From Tunturiibacter empetritectus (GTDB taxonomy: Bacteria; Acidobacteriota; Terriglobia; Terriglobales; Acidobacteriaceae), in contig NZ_JACHDZ010000001.1 of the NCBI RefSeq assembly GCF_014201375.1, forward strand, positions 62,001-126,000: DNA of 64,000 bases, in the 5' to 3' direction. The notes beneath the pieces are model-generated. The model was not told the origin of the DNA, ran no database searches, and saw only the letters and a list, made by a program, of their open reading frames with translations. The position numbers and the translations under genes were made by a program. Position 1 is the first letter of the stretch, and every line of letters begins with the position of its first letter. This document shows positions 11,798-60,235 of the stretch, one piece after another.

Positions 11798-12268
11798 ATG
11801 ATGACGATTGGCGAGAAGATTCAGACGGATATTGTGGTGGCGATGAAGGCGAAGGACGAGCATAAGCTGACGACGCTGCGGATGGTGAAGTCGGCGCTGA
11901 AGAATAAAGAGATCGACAAGCGGGAGAAGCTGACGGATGCGGAGGAGTCACAGATTCTGACGACGCTGATCAAGCAGCGGAGGGAGTCGGTGGAGTCGTT
12001 TACCAAGGGCGGACGGCCGGAGCTGGCGGAGAAGGAGCAGGCGGAGATTGGGATGATCGAAGGGTATCTGCCGCAGGCCGCGGGTGAGGATGTGATTCGC
12101 GGGGTGGTGCAGGGGGCGATTCATACGATGTCCGAGGGCGGTGCGAAGCCGACACCGAAGGAGATGGGCGCGGTGATGAAGGTGGTGCAGCAGCGGATTT
12201 TGGCGGATGGGCTGAGAGCGGATGGGAAGCTGGTCAGCGAGATCGTGAAGGCGGAGTTGGCGAAGTAG
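11798..12268 (+). CDS. yqeY: GatB/YqeY domain protein
   Basis: A 156-residue protein made only of the YqeY domain, the helical module also found at the C-terminus of GatB, the tRNA-dependent amidotransferase subunit. The N-terminal helical region (LRMVKSALKNKEIDKREKLTDAEE, KQRRESVESF, IGMIEGYLPQ) and the C-terminal tRNA-contacting-type domain (TPKEMGAVMKVVQQRI to KAELAK) are both intact. Stand-alone YqeY has no settled function. Two adjacent ATGs (11798, 11801) share the GATGAGGGA ribosome site. Its last 67 bases are echoed at 12914-12981, beyond a small membrane-protein gene. Confidence 0.92.
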   Translation: MMTIGEKIQTDIVVAMKAKDEHKLTTLRMVKSALKNKEIDKREKLTDAEESQILTTLIKQRRESVESFTKGGRPELAEKEQAEIGMIEGYLPQAAGEDVIRGVVQGAIHTMSEGGAKPTPKEMGAVMKVVQQRILADGLRADGKLVSEIVKAELAK

Positions 12269-12354
12269 TTGCGTGATGCCGGGTGCGACGGCTGGTTGAT
12301 CGCGCGAACGGTACGTAGGCTGGGAAGGTTCATGTCCAGGAGCTTGTTTCTTCG

Positions 12355-12822
12355 ATGTCGTATGCTTCTTTCAAATCAGTTGAATCGGAAGAGATTTTGT
12401 CGCCGCGAATGCCTGCGGCCAAGGCGATGAGAGCTCAGGGGCTTATTGCCTGGTCGAGCCTCTTCTTCGTGCTTCTGCAAAGCATCTGCAGCTTCTTTGT
12501 CGCTCTGGATGGTCTGCGTGTCGTAATTGGAGTAGGGGCTTTGGCCGGCATCACACAGGCCGGGATGACCTGGAACAAAGTCCACACAGACTGGATTCGC
12601 GTTCCCATGATTGCGTTTGCCCTGGTGGGTGCGCTGCTGAACCTGGCGATTCTGCGGCGCGCTCGATATCTCCGCAGACGCCCGTCGTCGCTCTGGCGTC
12701 AAAGGCCTCTGACCCTGCGCAAGATTCGAATGGAACGCGTCCAGTTGGTTTTGTCACTGGTCACGCTGGCACTCATAGCGATTGAAGAGCTGACACACTT
12801 TCATACGTTTCATCGGATGTGA
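12355..12822 (+). CDS. small membrane protein of unknown function, between yqeY and its echo
   Basis: A 155-residue protein with about four hydrophobic segments (residues 29-50, 56-72, 84-100 and 130-147) and an Arg-rich loop between the last two. I do not recognise the family. It lies in the 645-base stretch that separates the true end of yqeY from a displaced copy of that end, so it looks like a passenger gene. No strong ribosome site precedes the ATG. A cytoplasmic-membrane location is the only prediction I can support. Confidence 0.6.
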   Translation: MSYASFKSVESEEILSPRMPAAKAMRAQGLIAWSSLFFVLLQSICSFFVALDGLRVVIGVGALAGITQAGMTWNKVHTDWIRVPMIAFALVGALLNLAILRRARYLRRRPSSLWRQRPLTLRKIRMERVQLVLSLVTLALIAIEELTHFHTFHRM

Positions 12823-12913
12823 TCTTCGTTTTGCGTGCGGGTTGGCGGCTGTATCTTCGCGACCAGTTGAACTTGCGTGGTGCCATGATGGGAGATCTTT
12901 GCGAGGGAGGCCG

Positions 12914-12981
12914 GCGGATGAGCTGCGCGCGGATGGTAGGCTCTGGTGAGCGAGATGGTGAAGGCGGAGCTGGCGAAATAA
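12914..12981 (+). pseudogene. displaced copy of the yqeY 3' end
   Basis: About 68 bases aligning to 12202-12268, the end of yqeY, with roughly 80% identity and a few small indels. The last 13 codons read LVSEMVKAELAK-stop against LVSEIVKAELAK-stop in the gene. Upstream frames are broken by stops. Weaker similarity can be traced a further 30 bases upstream. Confidence 0.85.
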
Positions 12982-13062: not shown

Positions 13063-13518
13063 ATGCGAAAGATTCTGTGCGCTTTAGTGCTGTTAACGTT
13101 TGCGACGCCGCTGCTGGCTAGTGATCCCTTCGCTGGGACCTGGACGCTCAACTCTGCAAAGACGAAGTATACGACCGGGACTGCACCAAAGAACGTAACG
13201 CTCGTAATTGAGGAGCAGGGGGCCAATCTTCAGGTGACTGGTACTGGCACGACCGGTGATGGCTCGCCGATATCGGTGAAATATACGGTTCCGGTCAAAG
13301 GCGGGGTAGGGACCGTACAGGAGGGCGACTTCGATGGCGTCAGCTCGAAACTGATCAGCTCTCACGTTCGCCACAATACCTTCATGAAAGACGGGAAAGA
13401 GATCAGGACACGTCATGCCGTCGTTTCGGAAGACGGGAAGACGCTTTCGACCACCGTCAAGGGAACTGGCGCGGACGGGAAGCCGGTGGCCGGGGTGGAC
13501 GTTTACGACAAACAGTAG
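13063..13518 (+). CDS. exported hypothetical protein, beta-rich
   Basis: A 151-residue protein with a Sec signal (MRKILCALVLLTFATPLLA, cleavage near residue 19). The mature part starts DPFAGTWTLNSAKTKY, a motif I associate with a group of small acidobacterial secreted beta-barrel-like proteins, and alternates short strands with Gly/Thr turns (lipocalin-like pattern). Function unknown; a small-ligand-binding or quality-control role would be guesswork. It ends ahead of a strong bidirectional hairpin and faces the TonB receptor gene. Confidence 0.7.
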   Translation: MRKILCALVLLTFATPLLASDPFAGTWTLNSAKTKYTTGTAPKNVTLVIEEQGANLQVTGTGTTGDGSPISVKYTVPVKGGVGTVQEGDFDGVSSKLISSHVRHNTFMKDGKEIRTRHAVVSEDGKTLSTTVKGTGADGKPVAGVDVYDKQ

Positions 13519-13606: not shown

Positions 13607-13645
13607 TTTGGGGTTCCTGAGTGCTGTTTATTCAGGAACCCCAAA
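13607..13645. terminator. bidirectional terminator hairpin
   Basis: TTTGGGGTTCCTGA and TCAGGAACCCCAAA form a perfect 14-bp stem with an 11-base loop. It lies exactly between the stop codons of two convergent genes (13518 and 13656), and short T/A flanks suit termination in both directions. Confidence 0.85.
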
Positions 13646-13655
13646 TTCGTGTCGG

Positions 13656-15566
13656 CTAATGGCGCGAAGCGGTCCAGTTGAACTCGGTTCCGGCAAGGAT
13701 GGTGCGGCCTTGCAGGGGGACTTGCGGGATCTCCTGATAGCCGGTGTTGCTTAGGTTCAGCAGGCGAAGGTAGGGGCGGAGGTGGCCGGTGTTGCGGGAG
13801 AGGGTGACGTCCCAGAGCGGGTAGGCGGTGTGCTGGGTGCGCTGGACGATGTTGATCTGGGTGCGGGCGTTGATCTGGTGGCCGAGTCTGCCGAAGAGTT
13901 CTCCGGGCAGGGTTCCGTTCCAGGCGAAGATGGCGTTTTGTGCGGCGTAGTTGTAGGCGTACTCGGAGATAAGGTTGGCGGGTGGCGAGGCGGCGTGGGC
14001 GGCGGTGTAGCTGAATTGCAGATTTTGCGTGGTGGTGAGTCGGAGGCGGAGGGTGGTCTCGGCTCCGGTGATGTTGAGGTTCTGGATGTTGACGGCCTGA
14101 TAGGGCTCGGCGAAGGTGAGGGCTGAGGTGGCGAGGGCGAACTTGGAGTAGTCGATGGAGTCTTTTTGCTGGAGGCGGAAGGCGGTTGCGGTGAGGGTGA
14201 GGCGTCCGTTAGTGGGGGTCCAATCGGCGCCTGCTTCGTAGCTCCAGGAGGACTCGGGTTTGAGGTTTGGGTTGCCGATGGTGGTGGGGTCGGCGTAGTA
14301 GAGATCGACGTAGGTGGGGAGGCGGAAGCCGTGGCCGGCGGCGGCGCGGAGTCGCGTGGTGTGGGTGAGTGTGTAGGCGGCGGCGATGCTGGGGGAGAAG
14401 ACATTGCCGTTGCTGGAGAGGAGTTCGTCGCGTGCTCCGATCGACAGGGAGAAGCGGCCTAGGGCGCGGAGATTGAGGTTGGCGTAGCCTGCACCCTGGT
14501 TGCGGGCGTGCTGGCCGAGCGAGTTCGAGTGGATGGAGTCGCCGTCGGCTTCGAGGCCGTAGGAGAGGGTGATGTTGGGGGTGATGGTGTCGGCGCGGCG
14601 GAGGGCGGCTTCGTAGCTGGTGGTGATGTGGTTGTTCTCGTAGATCTGGGGCTGGTCGGCGAAGAGGACGAAGAGGTCGGAGTGGCGGCGGTAGCCGAAG
14701 CTGGCGGCGGTGCGTGCCCCGAGCTGCTGCTGGATGCTGGCGAACCAGCCTTTGGTGCGCTCCTGGGAGTCGTATGGGCCGTAGAAGAGGTTGGCGCCGT
14801 AGGGGCGGTCGCTGGTGGCGAGGAGGATGTCGGTTGTGCCGGGTTTGAGGGTGAGCCAGGTCTCGGAGGCGAGGGCGTTGCTGCTGTAGTTGCGGTCGGG
14901 GATGAAGCCGTCGGAGGTGTCACGGCTGCCGGTGAGCTGCTCACTGAGGGGGCCGTGGGCGTAGGAGACGCGGAGGTGCTGCTCGATGGAGTAGAAGCTG
15001 CCTGCTCCTGCGCTGGCGACGATGGTGACGCCGGGGGCGGGCGGCTGGGTGAGGAGGTTGACGGCGCCGCCGATGGCGTCGGAGCCGTAAAACGTCGATC
15101 CCGATCCGTGGAGGATGTCGATTCTGGTGACGGCGTCGAGGGGGATGGGGAGGTCGAGGTTGAGGTGGCCGGTTTCGGGGTCGTTGATGCGGAGGCCGTT
15201 GAGGAGGATGAGAGACTGCTCGAAGGTGGTGCCGCGGAGGGAGAGGTCGGCCTGGACGCCGTTGGCTGCGCGGGCCTGCAGGTTGAGGGAGGGATCCTGA
15301 CGGAGGAGGTCTACTACGGAGTTTGAGACGAGGGGCTGGTCGCGGGGCGAGAGGAGGTTGACGGAGCGGTCGCTTTCGGCGAGTGGGAGGGGCTCGAGGG
15401 TGGTGGTGACGGTGATGCTTTCGGCGGTGGTCGGGATGGATGCGGGCTTCTGCGGATTGGCGGTGGATGATTGAGGGGATGGCTGCTGGGAGAGGGCTGT
15501 GCCGACGCAGAAGATTACAGCCAGTAGATTTCGCTTCACATATCTTTTCAGTTGGTGCGCGGGCAT
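13656..15566 (-). CDS. TonB-dependent outer membrane receptor (BtuB/CirA-like)
   Basis: A 636-residue outer membrane receptor. After an N-terminal signal, a TonB-box-like SITVTTT stretch (about 50-56) leads into a plug domain (DLLRQDPSLNLQARAANGVQADLSLRGT, GLRINDPETGHLNLDLPI, ILHGSGSTFYGSDAIGGAVNLLTQ) and a 22-strand barrel ending in an aromatic-poor strand. The plug resembles BtuB and siderophore receptors; no cobalamin riboswitch is visible upstream, so vitamin B12 cannot be asserted as substrate. A MarR-type regulator is divergently transcribed and may control it. A TonB-type protein sits at 29978. Confidence 0.9.
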   Translation of the reverse strand: MPAHQLKRYVKRNLLAVIFCVGTALSQQPSPQSSTANPQKPASIPTTAESITVTTTLEPLPLAESDRSVNLLSPRDQPLVSNSVVDLLRQDPSLNLQARAANGVQADLSLRGTTFEQSLILLNGLRINDPETGHLNLDLPIPLDAVTRIDILHGSGSTFYGSDAIGGAVNLLTQPPAPGVTIVASAGAGSFYSIEQHLRVSYAHGPLSEQLTGSRDTSDGFIPDRNYSSNALASETWLTLKPGTTDILLATSDRPYGANLFYGPYDSQERTKGWFASIQQQLGARTAASFGYRRHSDLFVLFADQPQIYENNHITTSYEAALRRADTITPNITLSYGLEADGDSIHSNSLGQHARNQGAGYANLNLRALGRFSLSIGARDELLSSNGNVFSPSIAAAYTLTHTTRLRAAAGHGFRLPTYVDLYYADPTTIGNPNLKPESSWSYEAGADWTPTNGRLTLTATAFRLQQKDSIDYSKFALATSALTFAEPYQAVNIQNLNITGAETTLRLRLTTTQNLQFSYTAAHAASPPANLISEYAYNYAAQNAIFAWNGTLPGELFGRLGHQINARTQINIVQRTQHTAYPLWDVTLSRNTGHLRPYLRLLNLSNTGYQEIPQVPLQGRTILAGTEFNWTASRH

Positions 15567-15686: not shown

Positions 15687-16148
15687 GTGAGAATTGATGC
15701 GTTTTTGAGTCAGAGCCCTGTGGTGCAGACGATTCGTGCCGCTCGCCGGATGGAGTCTGCGGTCAATCAGGTTCTGCGGGGGCACGGCGTCACTCTGTTC
15801 GAGTCGCTGGTGTTGGCGGCGATTCTCTTCGAGAGAACAGGGGAGATACAGCCGTCGCATCTGGCGGAGACGTTTCAGACGACTCGAGGCAATATAAGCC
15901 ACTGCATCTCGTCGCTGGAGGCGAAGGGGCTGGTTCGCAGGAAGATGAATGTGGAAGATGCCCGTGCGCTTCGGTTGGTGCTATTGCCTGCGGGGCGGCG
16001 GCGGGCTGTCCGGGTGGCTGGGATTCTGGATGGGATGCAGAGGCGCTTCGAGGACAGGTTTGGGGCGGTGAAGCTAGAGGGAATGATAGGGCAGATGAGT
16101 GCGGTGGAGGAGGTCTGCTCGAGTCTGGCTCGGGCCGCAGAGTTGTGA
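15687..16148 (+). CDS. MarR-family transcriptional regulator
   Basis: A 153-residue winged-helix protein. The recognition region reads QPSHLAETFQTTRGNISHCISSLEAKGLVRRKMNVEDARALRLVLLPAGRR, a standard MarR helix-turn-helix and wing. The start is a GTG at 15687 with GAGGAGATC seven bases upstream. It is divergent from the TonB receptor with only 120 bases between, so control of that receptor or of itself is likely. An AT-rich patch around 15617-15655 (AACAATTGAT) is the best operator candidate. The ligand is not predictable. Confidence 0.85.
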   Translation: MRIDAFLSQSPVVQTIRAARRMESAVNQVLRGHGVTLFESLVLAAILFERTGEIQPSHLAETFQTTRGNISHCISSLEAKGLVRRKMNVEDARALRLVLLPAGRRRAVRVAGILDGMQRRFEDRFGAVKLEGMIGQMSAVEEVCSSLARAAEL

Positions 16149-16174
16149 GGTCACACAAGTGCGATTCGAAGCAG

Positions 16175-17374
16175 TTAGCTTTTAGCAGAGAGGCCACTCT
16201 CCGCGTCGAACTGAGGGTTGACGTAGTCCCACTCTTCGGGATCCTCCAATCCGACTCTGATGGAGTCCTGTTTGAAGCCGTGGTGATCGAGCAGATCCAT
16301 CATCAGTCTTAGAAGCGAAGGATTTTTTGTGACGAAGTCGATTCCGGGCACCGGGGTAACAGGGCCTCGGGTGAGGCCGGCGAGAAATTGCATCAGTTCA
16401 CTTGTGGTTTGCAGCTTATCGGGATAGGTGGCGTAGTCGGTTGAGGCAGGAAGCTCCTGAATGATGATCGTCCTGGCGGTTCCGTCGACGATACATTCCA
16501 CTGGCGTCCATACCTTGCTGAAGCTAAGGTGCCCGAGCAGAACGTGGAAGTCTGCGTTGAGCTGCTCCATTTCTTTCGCGTGGTCGGCTTTTATCTTGTC
16601 CAGAAGCCTGTTTCTCTCGGGACTGTCGAAGGGCAGTTTGTAGAGTGGGAAGAATGCTTTGAGGTCGCGCTCGGCAATTTCGTAGAGGTTGCGGCAGAAG
16701 TCGGCACGCTGGCTGATCGCGGTGACGACGAGAGCTTTGTGGTTGTCCGGCACGATCCTCTCCTCGATAGTGAACGCGGAGACAAAACGGATGTAGGGCT
16801 GGGTAGGAAAGGTCTTTGCGAGAGCTAGGCACATGGTCTGTAGAAAGCCCTGCTTTGCGGCATCGCTGTCGCTAATGAGTGCGATCTTCTGCACGGAGAG
16901 AGGGCGCCACTGTGTCCGGCTTTTCTGGTTTGCATTTTGAACGATCTGCTGATCGATATGGACGGTAAAGTTTCCCATCACGACGCCGGGAGATTGATCT
17001 CCCAGGGTGGTGACGCCACCCATTTTCACTTTTTCGATGGGCGCTGCGGGGCCGGTTGGCGCGGACGAGCCATAGTCTCCGCCGACAAACCCTGGGGAAC
17101 CTGACCCCGCGGTGCGGATGTCGCCTATGGTCACGCTGCGGGATCTCCGGGCGGCGCTTCTGCTGACCAGGATGACGATAACCGCAGCAAGAAAAAGCCC
17201 GGCCGCAGCGATGCCGCCCCTGGTGAACTCCTGGCCGAAGATGGTGAACGCTACGTCGTTGCCGACGTGCTTCAGCGCCAGCACCGCACCTACGATAGCC
17301 AGCAGCGCAGCGATGAGGTATGCCCCAATAAGGGTCAGACGCCCATGATCCGATCTGTCCGGGTTTCCAGTCAT
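16175..17374 (-). CDS. membrane-anchored hypothetical protein with large cytoplasmic domain
   Basis: About 399 residues from the ATG at 17374, chosen because GAGCGAGGGA precedes it; an upstream TTG-type start would add 22 residues. Two transmembrane helices (about 12-34 and 54-72) are followed by Arg-rich sequence, a Gly-rich repetitive strand region (GDIRTAGSGSPGFVGGDYG, GDQSPGVVMGNFTVHI), and a 230-residue soluble domain beginning RPLSVQKIALISDSDAAKQGFL. I do not recognise the soluble domain. The middle resembles a short stacked-beta (GDxSPG) repeat. No neighbour suggests a pathway. Confidence 0.6.
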   Translation of the reverse strand: MTGNPDRSDHGRLTLIGAYLIAALLAIVGAVLALKHVGNDVAFTIFGQEFTRGGIAAAGLFLAAVIVILVSRSAARRSRSVTIGDIRTAGSGSPGFVGGDYGSSAPTGPAAPIEKVKMGGVTTLGDQSPGVVMGNFTVHIDQQIVQNANQKSRTQWRPLSVQKIALISDSDAAKQGFLQTMCLALAKTFPTQPYIRFVSAFTIEERIVPDNHKALVVTAISQRADFCRNLYEIAERDLKAFFPLYKLPFDSPERNRLLDKIKADHAKEMEQLNADFHVLLGHLSFSKVWTPVECIVDGTARTIIIQELPASTDYATYPDKLQTTSELMQFLAGLTRGPVTPVPGIDFVTKNPSLLRLMMDLLDHHGFKQDSIRVGLEDPEEWDYVNPQFDAESGLSAKS

Positions 17375-17531
17375 ATCTGACGGTCCCTCGCTCTTGTGGA
17401 AGATATTGGGAATGGTGTCAGGTGAAAGGAAAATTGGCAAATGCTTTTTTTTGAGGCCGCAGGTAAATTTGCAGTCTTTCGGGCACTACGGGAACGCATC
17501 CAAGGGCTCGGTGCCTGCTGGGAGAAGGCAG

Positions 17532-17559
17532 TTATTCCCGGATGATTTTGACGACGGCT
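17532..17559 (-). pseudogene. displaced RNase H gene end, echo A
   Basis: On the minus strand this encodes LAVVKIIRE-stop, against DGVFVKIIRE-stop at the true gene end. About 27 bases align with a few mismatches. It is the farther and more decayed of two echoes. Confidence 0.65.
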
Positions 17560-17721
17560 AGGTCTCAATACATGATTGAAGGATCAGAGATTCAGAAAAT
17601 CAAGTCAGCTGGACTTTGGCACGCGTTTGATGACCTGGGAGAGTTTAATCAAGCTGTTACCCATTGAATAACCAGCCATGGCTCGCCTAATGATGCGAAT
17701 CCCAAGTCAAACTGAGGACCG

Positions 17722-17811: not shown

Positions 17812-18240
17812 ATGTTTGCCAAAACGGTTTGGAAAAAGGGGATGGAGTTTGAGGGGCACTCCGAAAGTGGCCATCATGTCGCCTTCGACGCTGGAGCTGC
17901 GCACGCCAACGGCCCTACCCCCATGGAGGCGGTTCTGATGGCCCTTTGCGCCTGCACGTCTGTCGACGTCGTGTCGATCCTCGAAAAGAAGCGCGAACCC
18001 CTGACCAGCCTTACTGTGTCTGCAACCGCTGAACAGGCCGCTGCGCCGCCCCGGGTGTTTACAAGGATCATGCTGACTTACCGGATTGGCGGTGCTGTCT
18101 CAAAGAAGGCTGCCGAAGACGCTGTTGAACTCTCGAAGAATAAGTACTGTTCGGTCTCGAAGATGCTGGAAAAGGCCGCCCAGATCGACTTCAGGATCGA
18201 ATACGCGAACGACTCCAGCGTGGACGTCTCGAGGAAATAG
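17812..18240 (+). CDS. OsmC/Ohr-family redox protein
   Basis: A 142-residue OsmC-fold protein. The two conserved redox cysteines are present: Cys48 in LCACTSVDVV and Cys113 in KYCSVSKML, both typical of the OsmC/YhfA branch that reduces organic peroxides or acts on persulfides as a domain-swapped dimer. An AAAGGAA ribosome site is eight bases before the ATG. The gene is opposite to, and ends two bases from, the RNase H gene, with the RNase H gene end repeated on its other side, so it looks like a single-gene insert. The exact substrate is not predictable. Confidence 0.9.
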   Translation: MFAKTVWKKGMEFEGHSESGHHVAFDAGAAHANGPTPMEAVLMALCACTSVDVVSILEKKREPLTSLTVSATAEQAAAPPRVFTRIMLTYRIGGAVSKKAAEDAVELSKNKYCSVSKMLEKAAQIDFRIEYANDSSVDVSRK

Positions 18241-18242
18241 GG

Positions 18243-18926
18243 TTATTCGCGGATGATTTTTACGAAGACGCCGTCGGGGAGGGTGGCGTTGCCGAGGATG
18301 TGGACGACGCCGTCCTTGGTGAAGCCGCGGAGCATGGTGTCGGCTTTGGCGTAGGGGTTGGGTGGGGCTTCGGATTTGTCGGGATATGGGTTGGCTTTGG
18401 GTGGGGCGGCGGGCGGGCTGGAGGTGCCGGCTCCGGCTGGGGTGTGGCGCATTCCGCGGTCCATGGCTTCGTTGGCTAGGCGGTCGGCGTCTTTGTTTTT
18501 GTGGCGTAGGGCGTGGGAGATCTCGAAGGCTTCGAGTTTGGCGATGCGGTTTCGGGCCTCCTGCCAGAGAGGTTTGAGGTCGGGGGAGTTGACCTTGTAC
18601 TTGCCCTGGATCTGTTTGACCATCAGCTCGGAGTCGGAGACGACGCGGAGGCGGGGGTGGTGGTGATCGAGGGCGTATTGCAGGCAGCCGAGGAGACCGG
18701 AGTACTCGGCGTAGTTGTTGGTGCGGAGGCCGAGGAATTCGGAGAGCTCGGCGAGGACGTTGCCGTGGTCGTCCTGGATGAGAGCGCCGTAGCCGGAGGG
18801 GCCGGGGTTGCCGCGGGCTCCGCCGTCGCAGTGGGCGTTGATCCAGGCGGTCTTTTTCGGGGCAGGTGGATTGGGGGTGGGGGCTTCGGAGAAGAGGCTG
18901 GGAGCGGTGGTCGGGCGGGGAGGCAT
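18243..18926 (-). CDS. RNase HI-like protein with C-terminal extension
   Basis: A 227-residue protein. Residues 25-160 are an RNase H fold with the full acidic set: Asp34 in CDGGARGNPGP, Glu74 in NNYAEYSG, Asp98 in VVSDSELMV, and Asp146/148 in HKNKDADRLAN. This version (YGALIQDDHGNVLAELSE, LMVKQIQGKYKV) is the RnhA/YpdQ-like branch that cleaves RNA in RNA/DNA hybrids. A Pro-rich linker leads to a 35-residue tail ending GVFVKIIRE. That tail is the part echoed twice downstream. A Pro-rich leader precedes the catalytic domain. Confidence 0.9.
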   Translation of the reverse strand: MPPRPTTAPSLFSEAPTPNPPAPKKTAWINAHCDGGARGNPGPSGYGALIQDDHGNVLAELSEFLGLRTNNYAEYSGLLGCLQYALDHHHPRLRVVSDSELMVKQIQGKYKVNSPDLKPLWQEARNRIAKLEAFEISHALRHKNKDADRLANEAMDRGMRHTPAGAGTSSPPAAPPKANPYPDKSEAPPNPYAKADTMLRGFTKDGVVHILGNATLPDGVFVKIIRE

Positions 18927-48516: not shown

Positions 48517-48539
48517 TCGACGGACGCCCATCGTTCTCC

Positions 48540-48605
48540 ATCAGCGCATTGGCCTCTTATTGAATTGTGGATAAACAGAGGGCCGGGCGCAGTTGTGTGG
48601 AGTAC
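48540..48605. repeat. 66-bp direct repeat, left copy (before the cupin gene)
   Basis: Begins ATCAGCGCATTGG and ends GTTGTGTGGAGTAC. It matches 49150-49215 with only a few differences and two single-base gaps. The cupin gene lies between. Confidence 0.92.
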
Positions 48606-48665: not shown

Positions 48666-49127
48666 ATGAGAACCAGAATTCAGATCATCGCTTTCGCGGC
48701 GGCACTTTTATTCACCTTTCAGTCCCGGGCGCAAACAGGGGACGCAGGTTTCCCAAAAGGTGAACTATCCACCACGAAGAATCACACGGGGAACATTTGG
48801 CTCAAAGAGCTCAACGCAGGAGACAGTACGTTCGATCCCAGTATTGCTATGGCGATCTATGATGCCGGTGCAAAGCTGGATTGGCACATCCATCCAGGTG
48901 GTCAAGTCCTGCTTATTACCGAAGGCACTGGCTACTACCAGGAACGGGGAAAGCCAATACAAATCGTTCACAAGGGCGATGTCATCAAGTGTCTTCCGGG
49001 CGTAGAGCATTGGCACAGTGCAACCCCGAAAAGTACGTTTGCGTATATAGCGGTTACGCCGACTCAAAAGGGAAAGACAATTTGGTTGGAGCCCGTCAGC
49101 GACAAAGACTACAACAGCGTGAAGTAA
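48666..49127 (+). CDS. exported cupin-domain protein
   Basis: A 153-residue protein with a Sec signal (to about residue 22, ending QSRAQ). The cupin metal motifs are visible: the first, LDWHIHPGGQVLLITEGTGYYQERG, and the second, PGVEHWHSATPKSTFAYIAV; together they supply His, His and His ligands, with a Gln or Glu as fourth. Small secreted cupins of this sort are often annotated as carboxymuconolactone-type or quercetinase-like without evidence. AGGAGAAG precedes the ATG. Base composition is visibly more AT-rich than the neighbours, and direct repeats flank it, which suggests acquisition. Confidence 0.87.
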   Translation: MRTRIQIIAFAAALLFTFQSRAQTGDAGFPKGELSTTKNHTGNIWLKELNAGDSTFDPSIAMAIYDAGAKLDWHIHPGGQVLLITEGTGYYQERGKPIQIVHKGDVIKCLPGVEHWHSATPKSTFAYIAVTPTQKGKTIWLEPVSDKDYNSVK

Positions 49128-49149
49128 AAGCAGGCTCAGGCCGTCCTCA

Positions 49150-49215
49150 ATCAGCGCATTGGCGTCTTATTCGAATTGTGGATAAACAGCGAGCCGGCGC
49201 AGTTGTGTGGAGTAC
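49150..49215. repeat. 66-bp direct repeat, right copy (before the ECF42 gene)
   Basis: Near-identical to 48540-48605. It lies directly upstream of the ECF sigma gene, so it may hold part of that gene's promoter region. Confidence 0.92.
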
Positions 49216-59039: not shown

Positions 59040-59179
59040 GCTTGAATGATAGCGCAGGTTCGTGGGTGGTTGAGAGAAGCGACGCTGGAGAGGTGCTGCT
59101 TCGGTGGCATTGACTGGTTGGACGCGGTGGGGCGAATAAGGTTTCTGCGGTGGTGAGTGGGCGGAAGGTAAAGCAACTA

Positions 59180-59290
59180 CAAGGGCAACCGCAGATCCCC
59201 TTCGGGGATGACAACAAGAACGGCAACGGCAACAGCAGATTCCTCCGCTTCGCTACGGAATGACAAGCAAAAGAAACGGGCAACGGCAAG
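59180..59290. repeat. TTCGGGGATGAC repeat units
   Basis: Units of the form CGCAGATCCCCTTCGGGG-ATGACAACAAGAACGGCAACGG, the second one altered in its core (TCCTCCGCTTCGCTACGGAATGAC). The same unit occurs at 60136-60175 and 60184-60225. Confidence 0.75.
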
Positions 59291-59373: not shown

Positions 59374-60033
59374 CTAGGTGACGTCGACCTGGTGGAAGCC
59401 GAGGCCGTAGAGCAGGGTGGTGATGGTGGCGCGGGCGTTCTTGCGGGCGGTGTCGAGGATGCCGTCGGCCAGGGCGGACTGCTGGAGCTGCTGCTCGGCT
59501 TTGGCGCGGGTGTCGGACTCGAGGTTCTGGTCGGCGGGGATGAGGAGGCCGGTGGAGCGGGCGTAGACGCGGGTGTGCTGGTTGTCGAGCGTGGTGACGA
59601 AAAGCTGCGAGGCGGGGAGGGTGACGTGGATGGACTGGCCGTTGTTTTCGATGCGGACGTCCTCGGGCTTTAGTTGCGAGAGATCGATGCCGGCGATGGA
59701 CTGGCCGTGGACGACGAGGAGGAGGCGGTCGCCGGCGAGGAGGTCGGGGAGGACGGCGCTGGACTTCGAGCCTTCGACTACGGTGTCGATGGAGTAGACG
59801 ACGGTTTCGAGGCGGTTGAGGCGCTGAATGCGCTGGACGACCGCGGGAACTGAGGTGTCGAAGGTGGTAGTGCGGCCGGTGATGGCGGTGGCGGCGCGTG
59901 CGAAGATGCCTGTGGTGGCGTGGCGCAGGAAGACGGCCAGGGCTGCGGCGCCGAGGATCAACGAGAGCAGGACGACGAAGAAGGTGCCGGAGGATCTGCG
60001 TTCTGAACCGTAGGAGCCGTATTGGGTAGTCAT
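59374..60033 (-). CDS. DUF4230 membrane-anchored protein
   Basis: A 219-residue protein with one N-terminal transmembrane helix (SGTFFVVLLSLILGAAALAVFL) and an extracytoplasmic DUF4230 domain (VQRIQRLNRLETVVYSIDTVVEG, LPDLLAGDRLLLVVHGQSIAGIDLSQL). The domain's function is unknown. The last codons (GLGFHQVDVT) are repeated 56 bases downstream with a stop codon. Confidence 0.87.
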   Translation of the reverse strand: MTTQYGSYGSERRSSGTFFVVLLSLILGAAALAVFLRHATTGIFARAATAITGRTTTFDTSVPAVVQRIQRLNRLETVVYSIDTVVEGSKSSAVLPDLLAGDRLLLVVHGQSIAGIDLSQLKPEDVRIENNGQSIHVTLPASQLFVTTLDNQHTRVYARSTGLLIPADQNLESDTRAKAEQQLQQSALADGILDTARKNARATITTLLYGLGFHQVDVT

Positions 60034-60090: not shown

Positions 60091-60235
60091 AACTGCGCTG
60101 CGTTCAGGATGACCGCAAAAACAAAACAACTGCAACCGCAGATCCGCTTCGGGGATGACAACAAGAACGGCAGCGGCAACGGCGCAGATCCCATTTGGGG
60201 ATGATAACCAGAAAGGCAACCGCAACTGCAACCAC
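60091..60235. repeat. TTCGGGGATGAC repeat units, second array
   Basis: Two or three units of the family seen at 59180, including GCAGATCCGCTTCGGGG-ATGACAACAAGAACGGCAGCGGC and a variant with CCCATTTGGGGATGATAACC. It lies in the 243-base gap between the DUF4230 and peptidase genes. Confidence 0.75.

Follow-up and report, generated by a model that had tools for sequence, protein, structure and literature searches.

A slot behind yqeY in Tunturiibacter empetritectus is best read as a merger of alternative gene contents

One-sided homologous plus illegitimate recombination (HFIR) is known from naturally competent species and from E. coli conjugation (PMC3240628). In Vibrio cholerae, HFIR has been proposed for the stacked T6SS immunity genes (Kirchberger 2017, PMC5361080). 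Variable genes that lie between conserved genes without mobile elements have been modelled by double homologous recombination (PMC5635113), and small variable segments of bacterial genomes are described as short loci, 10-18% of which are flanked by direct repeats (PMC2884548). Here we describe a locus that is best read as the merged alternative contents of one slot, not as a one-gene insert of the gene that we call X. It is of a known kind and a good example of it, although our literature search, which is no proof of absence, found no description of slots at yqeY or RNase H.

The window, i.e., the whole stretch of 64,000 nucleotides analysed here, belongs to the genome that we call G000. Its first slot is bounded by yqeY and a convergent TonB-dependent receptor gene and shows the following features:

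11798..12268, plus strand: yqeY, complete resident gene (Pfam PF09424, E 4.7e-42)
12355..12822, plus strand: X, a 155-residue membrane protein with four hydrophobic peaks, probable older slot content
12852..12891, minus strand: TonB', what is left of a TonB-receptor gene's 3' end (from shuffles, peptide and gene-end controls)
12885..12913, no strand: join zone that resembles both the TonB 3' end and yqeY (from alignments)
12913..12981, plus strand: yqeY' (the echo), left over from the 3' terminus of a second yqeY; its end reads LVSEMVKAELAK-stop
13063..13518, plus strand: lip, probably the newcomer, coding for a small protein (151 residues) that looks exported
13607..13645, no strand: perfect 14-bp inverted repeat between convergent lip and TonB, terminator-like by position only
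13656..15566, minus strand: complete TonB-dependent receptor gene, right flank of the slot (PF00593 and PF07715)

The original prediction placed a repeat of the yqeY 3' end at 12914-12981, and our alignments bear this out. Positions 12913-12980 match the last 66 bases of yqeY in the same orientation (83.8% over 68 columns), with an E-value of 2.5e-16 when the yqeY 3' end was searched against 7.7 kb downstream. The last 13 codons of the echo (12943-12981) are in frame and read LVSEMVKAELAK-stop; further upstream, a 2-base insertion disrupts the frame. Similarity to yqeY ends at about 12913, with a weak, ambiguous zone back to about 12885, and is thus confined to the last 66 bases of the gene, about 95 at most. 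Because it stops there, the echo is no degraded copy of the whole yqeY gene. A tandem duplication of the whole gene, raised by the original prediction as the observation that would speak against it, was hence checked for and is ruled out as far as the sequence goes, similarity being limited to the terminal fragment. The echo is present in five relatives too (G031, G014, G065, G063 and G064) and is therefore no assembly artefact. By summed score, the yqeY 3' ends of G014 and G065 match it best and are thus candidate donors at most; G019 and G029, which single matches had suggested as closest, were overturned by this score.

X is the one open reading frame with coding character between yqeY and the echo. 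It matched no model in Pfam, NCBIfam, PHROG or PADLOC, and its AlphaFold model has three helices at a mean pLDDT of 58. X had been thought to lack recognisable relatives, but G000 itself carries two paralogues, 41-43% identical to it, and homologues are present in 45 of the 62 genomes of the genus and in 48 of 250 genomes of the class, spread over 9 of its 95 genera. As had been expected, yqeY is nearly universal in the genus (59 of 62 genomes) and X is patchy, lying directly behind yqeY in 11 of these 59. Elsewhere, in G031, G001 and G077, a member of the X family adjoins a cluster that we take to comprise a DoxX-like gene, an ECF sigma factor and an anti-sigma factor. Of this presumed set, G003 has only the ECF sigma and anti-sigma genes beside its X-family member, and the paralogue locus in G000 has the DoxX-like and ECF sigma genes. 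The lone terminator-like site from the pattern scan falls within X and was set aside; the scan did not list the inverted repeat at 13607-13645, and a promoter scan found none.

The original prediction saw only this one small gene between the repeats. The gap between X and the echo, however, also holds TonB', a remnant of about 40 bases at the position of the actual TonB end in G002 and G068, two genomes in which X and TonB are no more than about 20 bp apart. The peptide of TonB' in G031 reads PLQGSAIIAPRKFNWSRR, compared with PLQGRTIIAGTEFNWSRR-stop in G002. When TonB' of G000, G031 and G014 was aligned to the G002 TonB 3' end, 0 of 300 shuffles were as good; against the intact TonB gene of G000 itself, 39 of 300 shuffles matched the G000 remnant, which is not significant. 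In a control with 339 other gene 3' ends in both orientations, 0 of 678 equalled the best TonB score in five of six genomes, and in G063 a single one of the 678 scored equally high. The exact junction cannot be placed, since 12885-12913 resembles the TonB and yqeY ends alike. TonB' thus abuts yqeY' across an ambiguous zone similar to both, as in the illegitimate join of HFIR, and a short, imperfect chance homology may have guided the joining.

Slot maps were drawn for 36 of the 59 yqeY-bearing genomes, and adjacency of X or lip to yqeY in the others was taken from coordinates. Genomes in which convergent TonB follows yqeY with little or nothing in between include G019, G036, G003, G023 and G020. 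G002 and G068 show the order yqeY - X - TonB, and G000, G031, G014, G065, G063 and G064 the order yqeY - X - scar - lip - TonB; lip stands behind an echo only in these six echo-bearing genomes. Other mapped genomes carry other genes in the slot behind yqeY. Long genes downstream of yqeY in G035 (L138), G015 (L075) and G021 (L081) are presumably Ku and LigD-like end-joining genes. Five genomes have yqeY-X with no echo detected, namely G002, G068, G028, G066 and G076; of these, G028 is without the stretch from TonB to osmC, and in G066 and G076 X is separated from TonB by other DNA.

An rpoB tree was built from 26 of 29 requested genomes, as G018, G019 and G029 gave no match. In this tree the six fusion genomes form one clade (95/84) nested in a clade of 11 genomes (98/97), all of which carry yqeY-X, and the neighbour G071 is without X. 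The earlier view, with the echo as the mark of one insertion of X, is not supported by this comparison, with five yqeY-X genomes free of the echo and the six echo genomes nested inside. From the nesting it follows that X probably came first and the echo later, with lip. The simplest history is hence probably X, then yqeY'-lip. In the yqeY tree, G063 and G064 cluster with G076 (89/78), and X from these two is placed apart from X of the other four fusion genomes. For these two genomes, the left arm would therefore have been exchanged after, or instead of, the simple history.

We consider it likely that two alternative contents of one slot became fused at this locus through one-sided, HFIR-type joining. 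The ancestor of the 11-genome clade would have had yqeY - X - TonB, as G002 and G068 have today. In the ancestor of the six, incoming DNA with a yqeY 3' end, lip and TonB, probably acquired by natural transformation, would have recombined with the resident slot. Homology in TonB or past it would have served to join one side; on the other, the resident TonB 3' end would have been linked illegitimately to the incoming yqeY 3' end at a short chance similarity. As a result, yqeY' - lip would have been inserted and a TonB'/yqeY' scar left that later decayed, giving the order yqeY - X - TonB' / yqeY' - lip - TonB.

The finished gene order would be identical if the direction had been opposite and X were the newcomer. 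A yqeY-X-TonB' fragment would then have entered a yqeY-lip-TonB chromosome, either through one-sided recombination or, in the form of a small circle, through a single crossover at the 3' end of yqeY; the native yqeY end would be left as the echo. In agreement with this, the echo is the copy beside the lip-TonB side, and X of the trio G000, G031 and G014 is far from that of G002 and G028 (71-75% DNA identity, as against 91-94% for the aminotransferase gene). The five other clade members, however, have yqeY-X without lip or echo, the fusions nest inside them, and an older X would have to be lost or replaced, which makes this direction unlikely. A tandem duplication of the yqeY-TonB segment within one genome, followed by deletions after which X and lip are separated only by the ends of TonB and yqeY, would likewise bring a TonB 3' end beside a second yqeY. 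Such a course seems quite improbable to us: it would have to start with both cargo genes, or involve a later gene swap, and then pass through several deletions. The junction of X with TonB' looks like the simple one between X and TonB in G002 and G068, and no further yqeY or TonB remnants are seen.

Under the fusion of two slot contents, lip is probably the newcomer; we infer this direction, together with a yqeY-lip-TonB donor and one-sided HFIR. Close relatives of lip occur in 10 of the 62 genomes (E < 1e-59), i.e., in the six fusions, in G029, G067 and G072, and on one G018 contig. The block just upstream of the lip start is conserved in close relatives. In G029 lip sits after another gene, and in G067 (L127) and G072 (L126) it lies in the RNase H slot in the order MarR - lip - RNase H; the same cargo therefore occurs in both slots. 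The simple yqeY-lip-TonB parent was not found among the close lip genes of the 62 genomes, and lip matched no family model in Pfam, NCBIfam, PHROG or PADLOC. A homologous anchor, one feature of HFIR, may lie in the TonB and RNase H flanks, which are conserved, but no clear donor tract was resolved in the TonB sequence next to lip.

The second slot lies about 5 kb from the first, next to an RNase H gene found in 60 of the 62 genomes, and shows the following features:

17532..17554, minus strand: RNH'', a 23-24 bp remnant of the RNase H 3' end beside a gene of 421 residues
17722..17761, minus strand: RNH', a 40-41 bp RNase H 3' remnant upstream of osmC (92.7%, E 1e-13)
17812..18240, plus strand: osmC family gene, content of the second slot (NF008009, E 1.3e-31, below the curated cut-off)
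18243..18926, minus strand: complete RNase H gene, right flank of the second slot (named as in the original prediction)

The geometry of this site had been likened to that of the yqeY site, rightly so, as the RNase H 3' remnants show. RNH' is common to G000, G063 and G064, and RNH'' abuts unrelated DNA. The left arm in G000, consisting of the upstream end of the 421-residue gene, 90 bp and 24 bp of RNase H end, is 90% identical to G031 over 114 bp, where the counterpart runs into a complete RNase H gene in a simple junction of the two genes. The right arm, RNH' plus the osmC start, is 82% identical to G063 over 112 bp. By these alignments, both parent types of the RNase H slot fusion survive in relatives, and allele fusion is displayed more clearly here than at the yqeY site. 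The RNase H site thus lends independent support to the slot-fusion reading. For the approximately 162 bp between the two remnants (17555-17721), no source was found in the 36 mapped regions; part of this stretch is an open frame closed by a stop codon and may be what remains of the tail of a gene since lost. Upstream of osmC in G066, a short sequence resembles the end of RNase H (69% over 88 bp, E 0.008), and osmC's own arrival may hence have left an older scar. Further upstream, the MarR gene (within 15687-17440) is 94% identical between G000 and G031 and 71-74% identical to MarR of G014 and G002, and the 421-residue gene occurs only in G000 and G031 among 11 genomes compared. Both genes probably arrived together in these two genomes.

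Two target genes with equal geometry, direct repeats that run to the stop codon and one-gene cargo could also point to a dedicated, site-specific element. It would place single genes at the 3' ends of yqeY and RNase H and leave a direct repeat, here indeed made of the target gene's 3' end. However, no recombinase or integrase is found among the genes identified in the region, and searches of 50,697 phage and 72,556 plasmid records gave no match for X or lip. Moreover, the repeat lengths differ (23, 41 and 67 bp), and a TonB remnant adjoins the yqeY remnant. Against such an element, too, yqeY and RNase H were the only genes with strong noncoding echoes of their 3' ends in a scan of gene-end tags that covered 464 kb and 341 genes of at least 300 bp. 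Taken together, we regard a dedicated element as highly improbable. The window contains no tRNA, and an Rfam search found no family.

Within the sampled sequence the echoes are therefore a local phenomenon, and the 464-kb scan does not support a genome-wide echo habit. Inverted matches were absent at the reporting threshold; when the scan was repeated at 27 bits, 4 inverted matches stood against 67 direct ones, a direct excess that includes paralogues and repeats, so that the scan serves here as a list of echoes and no more. A general repeat scan showed a few other single genes flanked by repeats. Direct repeats of about 74 bp (91%) at 48532-48605 and 49142-49215 flank a single gene at 48666-49127 that resembles (R)-mandelonitrile lyase/cupin (NF049940, E 1e-31, below the cut-off), another single-gene unit of similar size between direct repeats. 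Noncoding direct repeats of 58 bp (91%) at 59179-59236 and 60126-60183 likewise flank a single gene at 59374-60033.

One-sided homologous plus illegitimate recombination remains the likeliest mechanism for the yqeY site and would account for the RNase H slot in the same way; ordinary machinery suffices, and a dedicated mobile element need not be invoked. Ku and ComEC are each present in 12 of 12 clade genomes; of 14 control genomes, 1 has Ku and 10 have ComEC. End joining and DNA uptake are therefore possible, ComEC being weak as evidence because so many controls have it too. We may further speculate that core-gene ends such as those of yqeY and RNase H are recurrent docking points in this lineage, at which single genes accumulate by one-sided recombination and echoes record each arrival and its order, a generalisation that we find doubtful.

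What we see belongs to normal genome evolution, but its record is exceptionally legible. A clean swap at a hotspot leaves nothing behind to see, whereas a fusion preserves the two old contents along with remnants of both flanks, and the order and direction of gene arrivals can therefore be read from the sequence. Fusion scars are thus a searchable signature of HFIR-like events beyond the few laboratory models.

In comparison with described systems, the work on small variable segments is a within-species comparison, and its account of these segments does not describe a fusion of alternative contents (PMC2884548). Double homologous recombination as modelled for variable genes (PMC5635113) should, by inference, give a clean swap with no seam or fused alleles, unlike the locus analysed here. 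With HFIR (PMC3240628), our locus would share homology on one side, an illegitimate join on the other and the addition of DNA beside a conserved anchor; the HFIR events in that report are laboratory events, whereas here only an old product is seen, from which the mechanism is deduced. The Vibrio cholerae arrays (PMC5361080) differ in that our slots have housekeeping flanks, no effector-immunity pairs and, at the seam, remnants of both flanks. As in those arrays, however, successive additions would here have taken place at a conserved gene, with older content pushed downstream.
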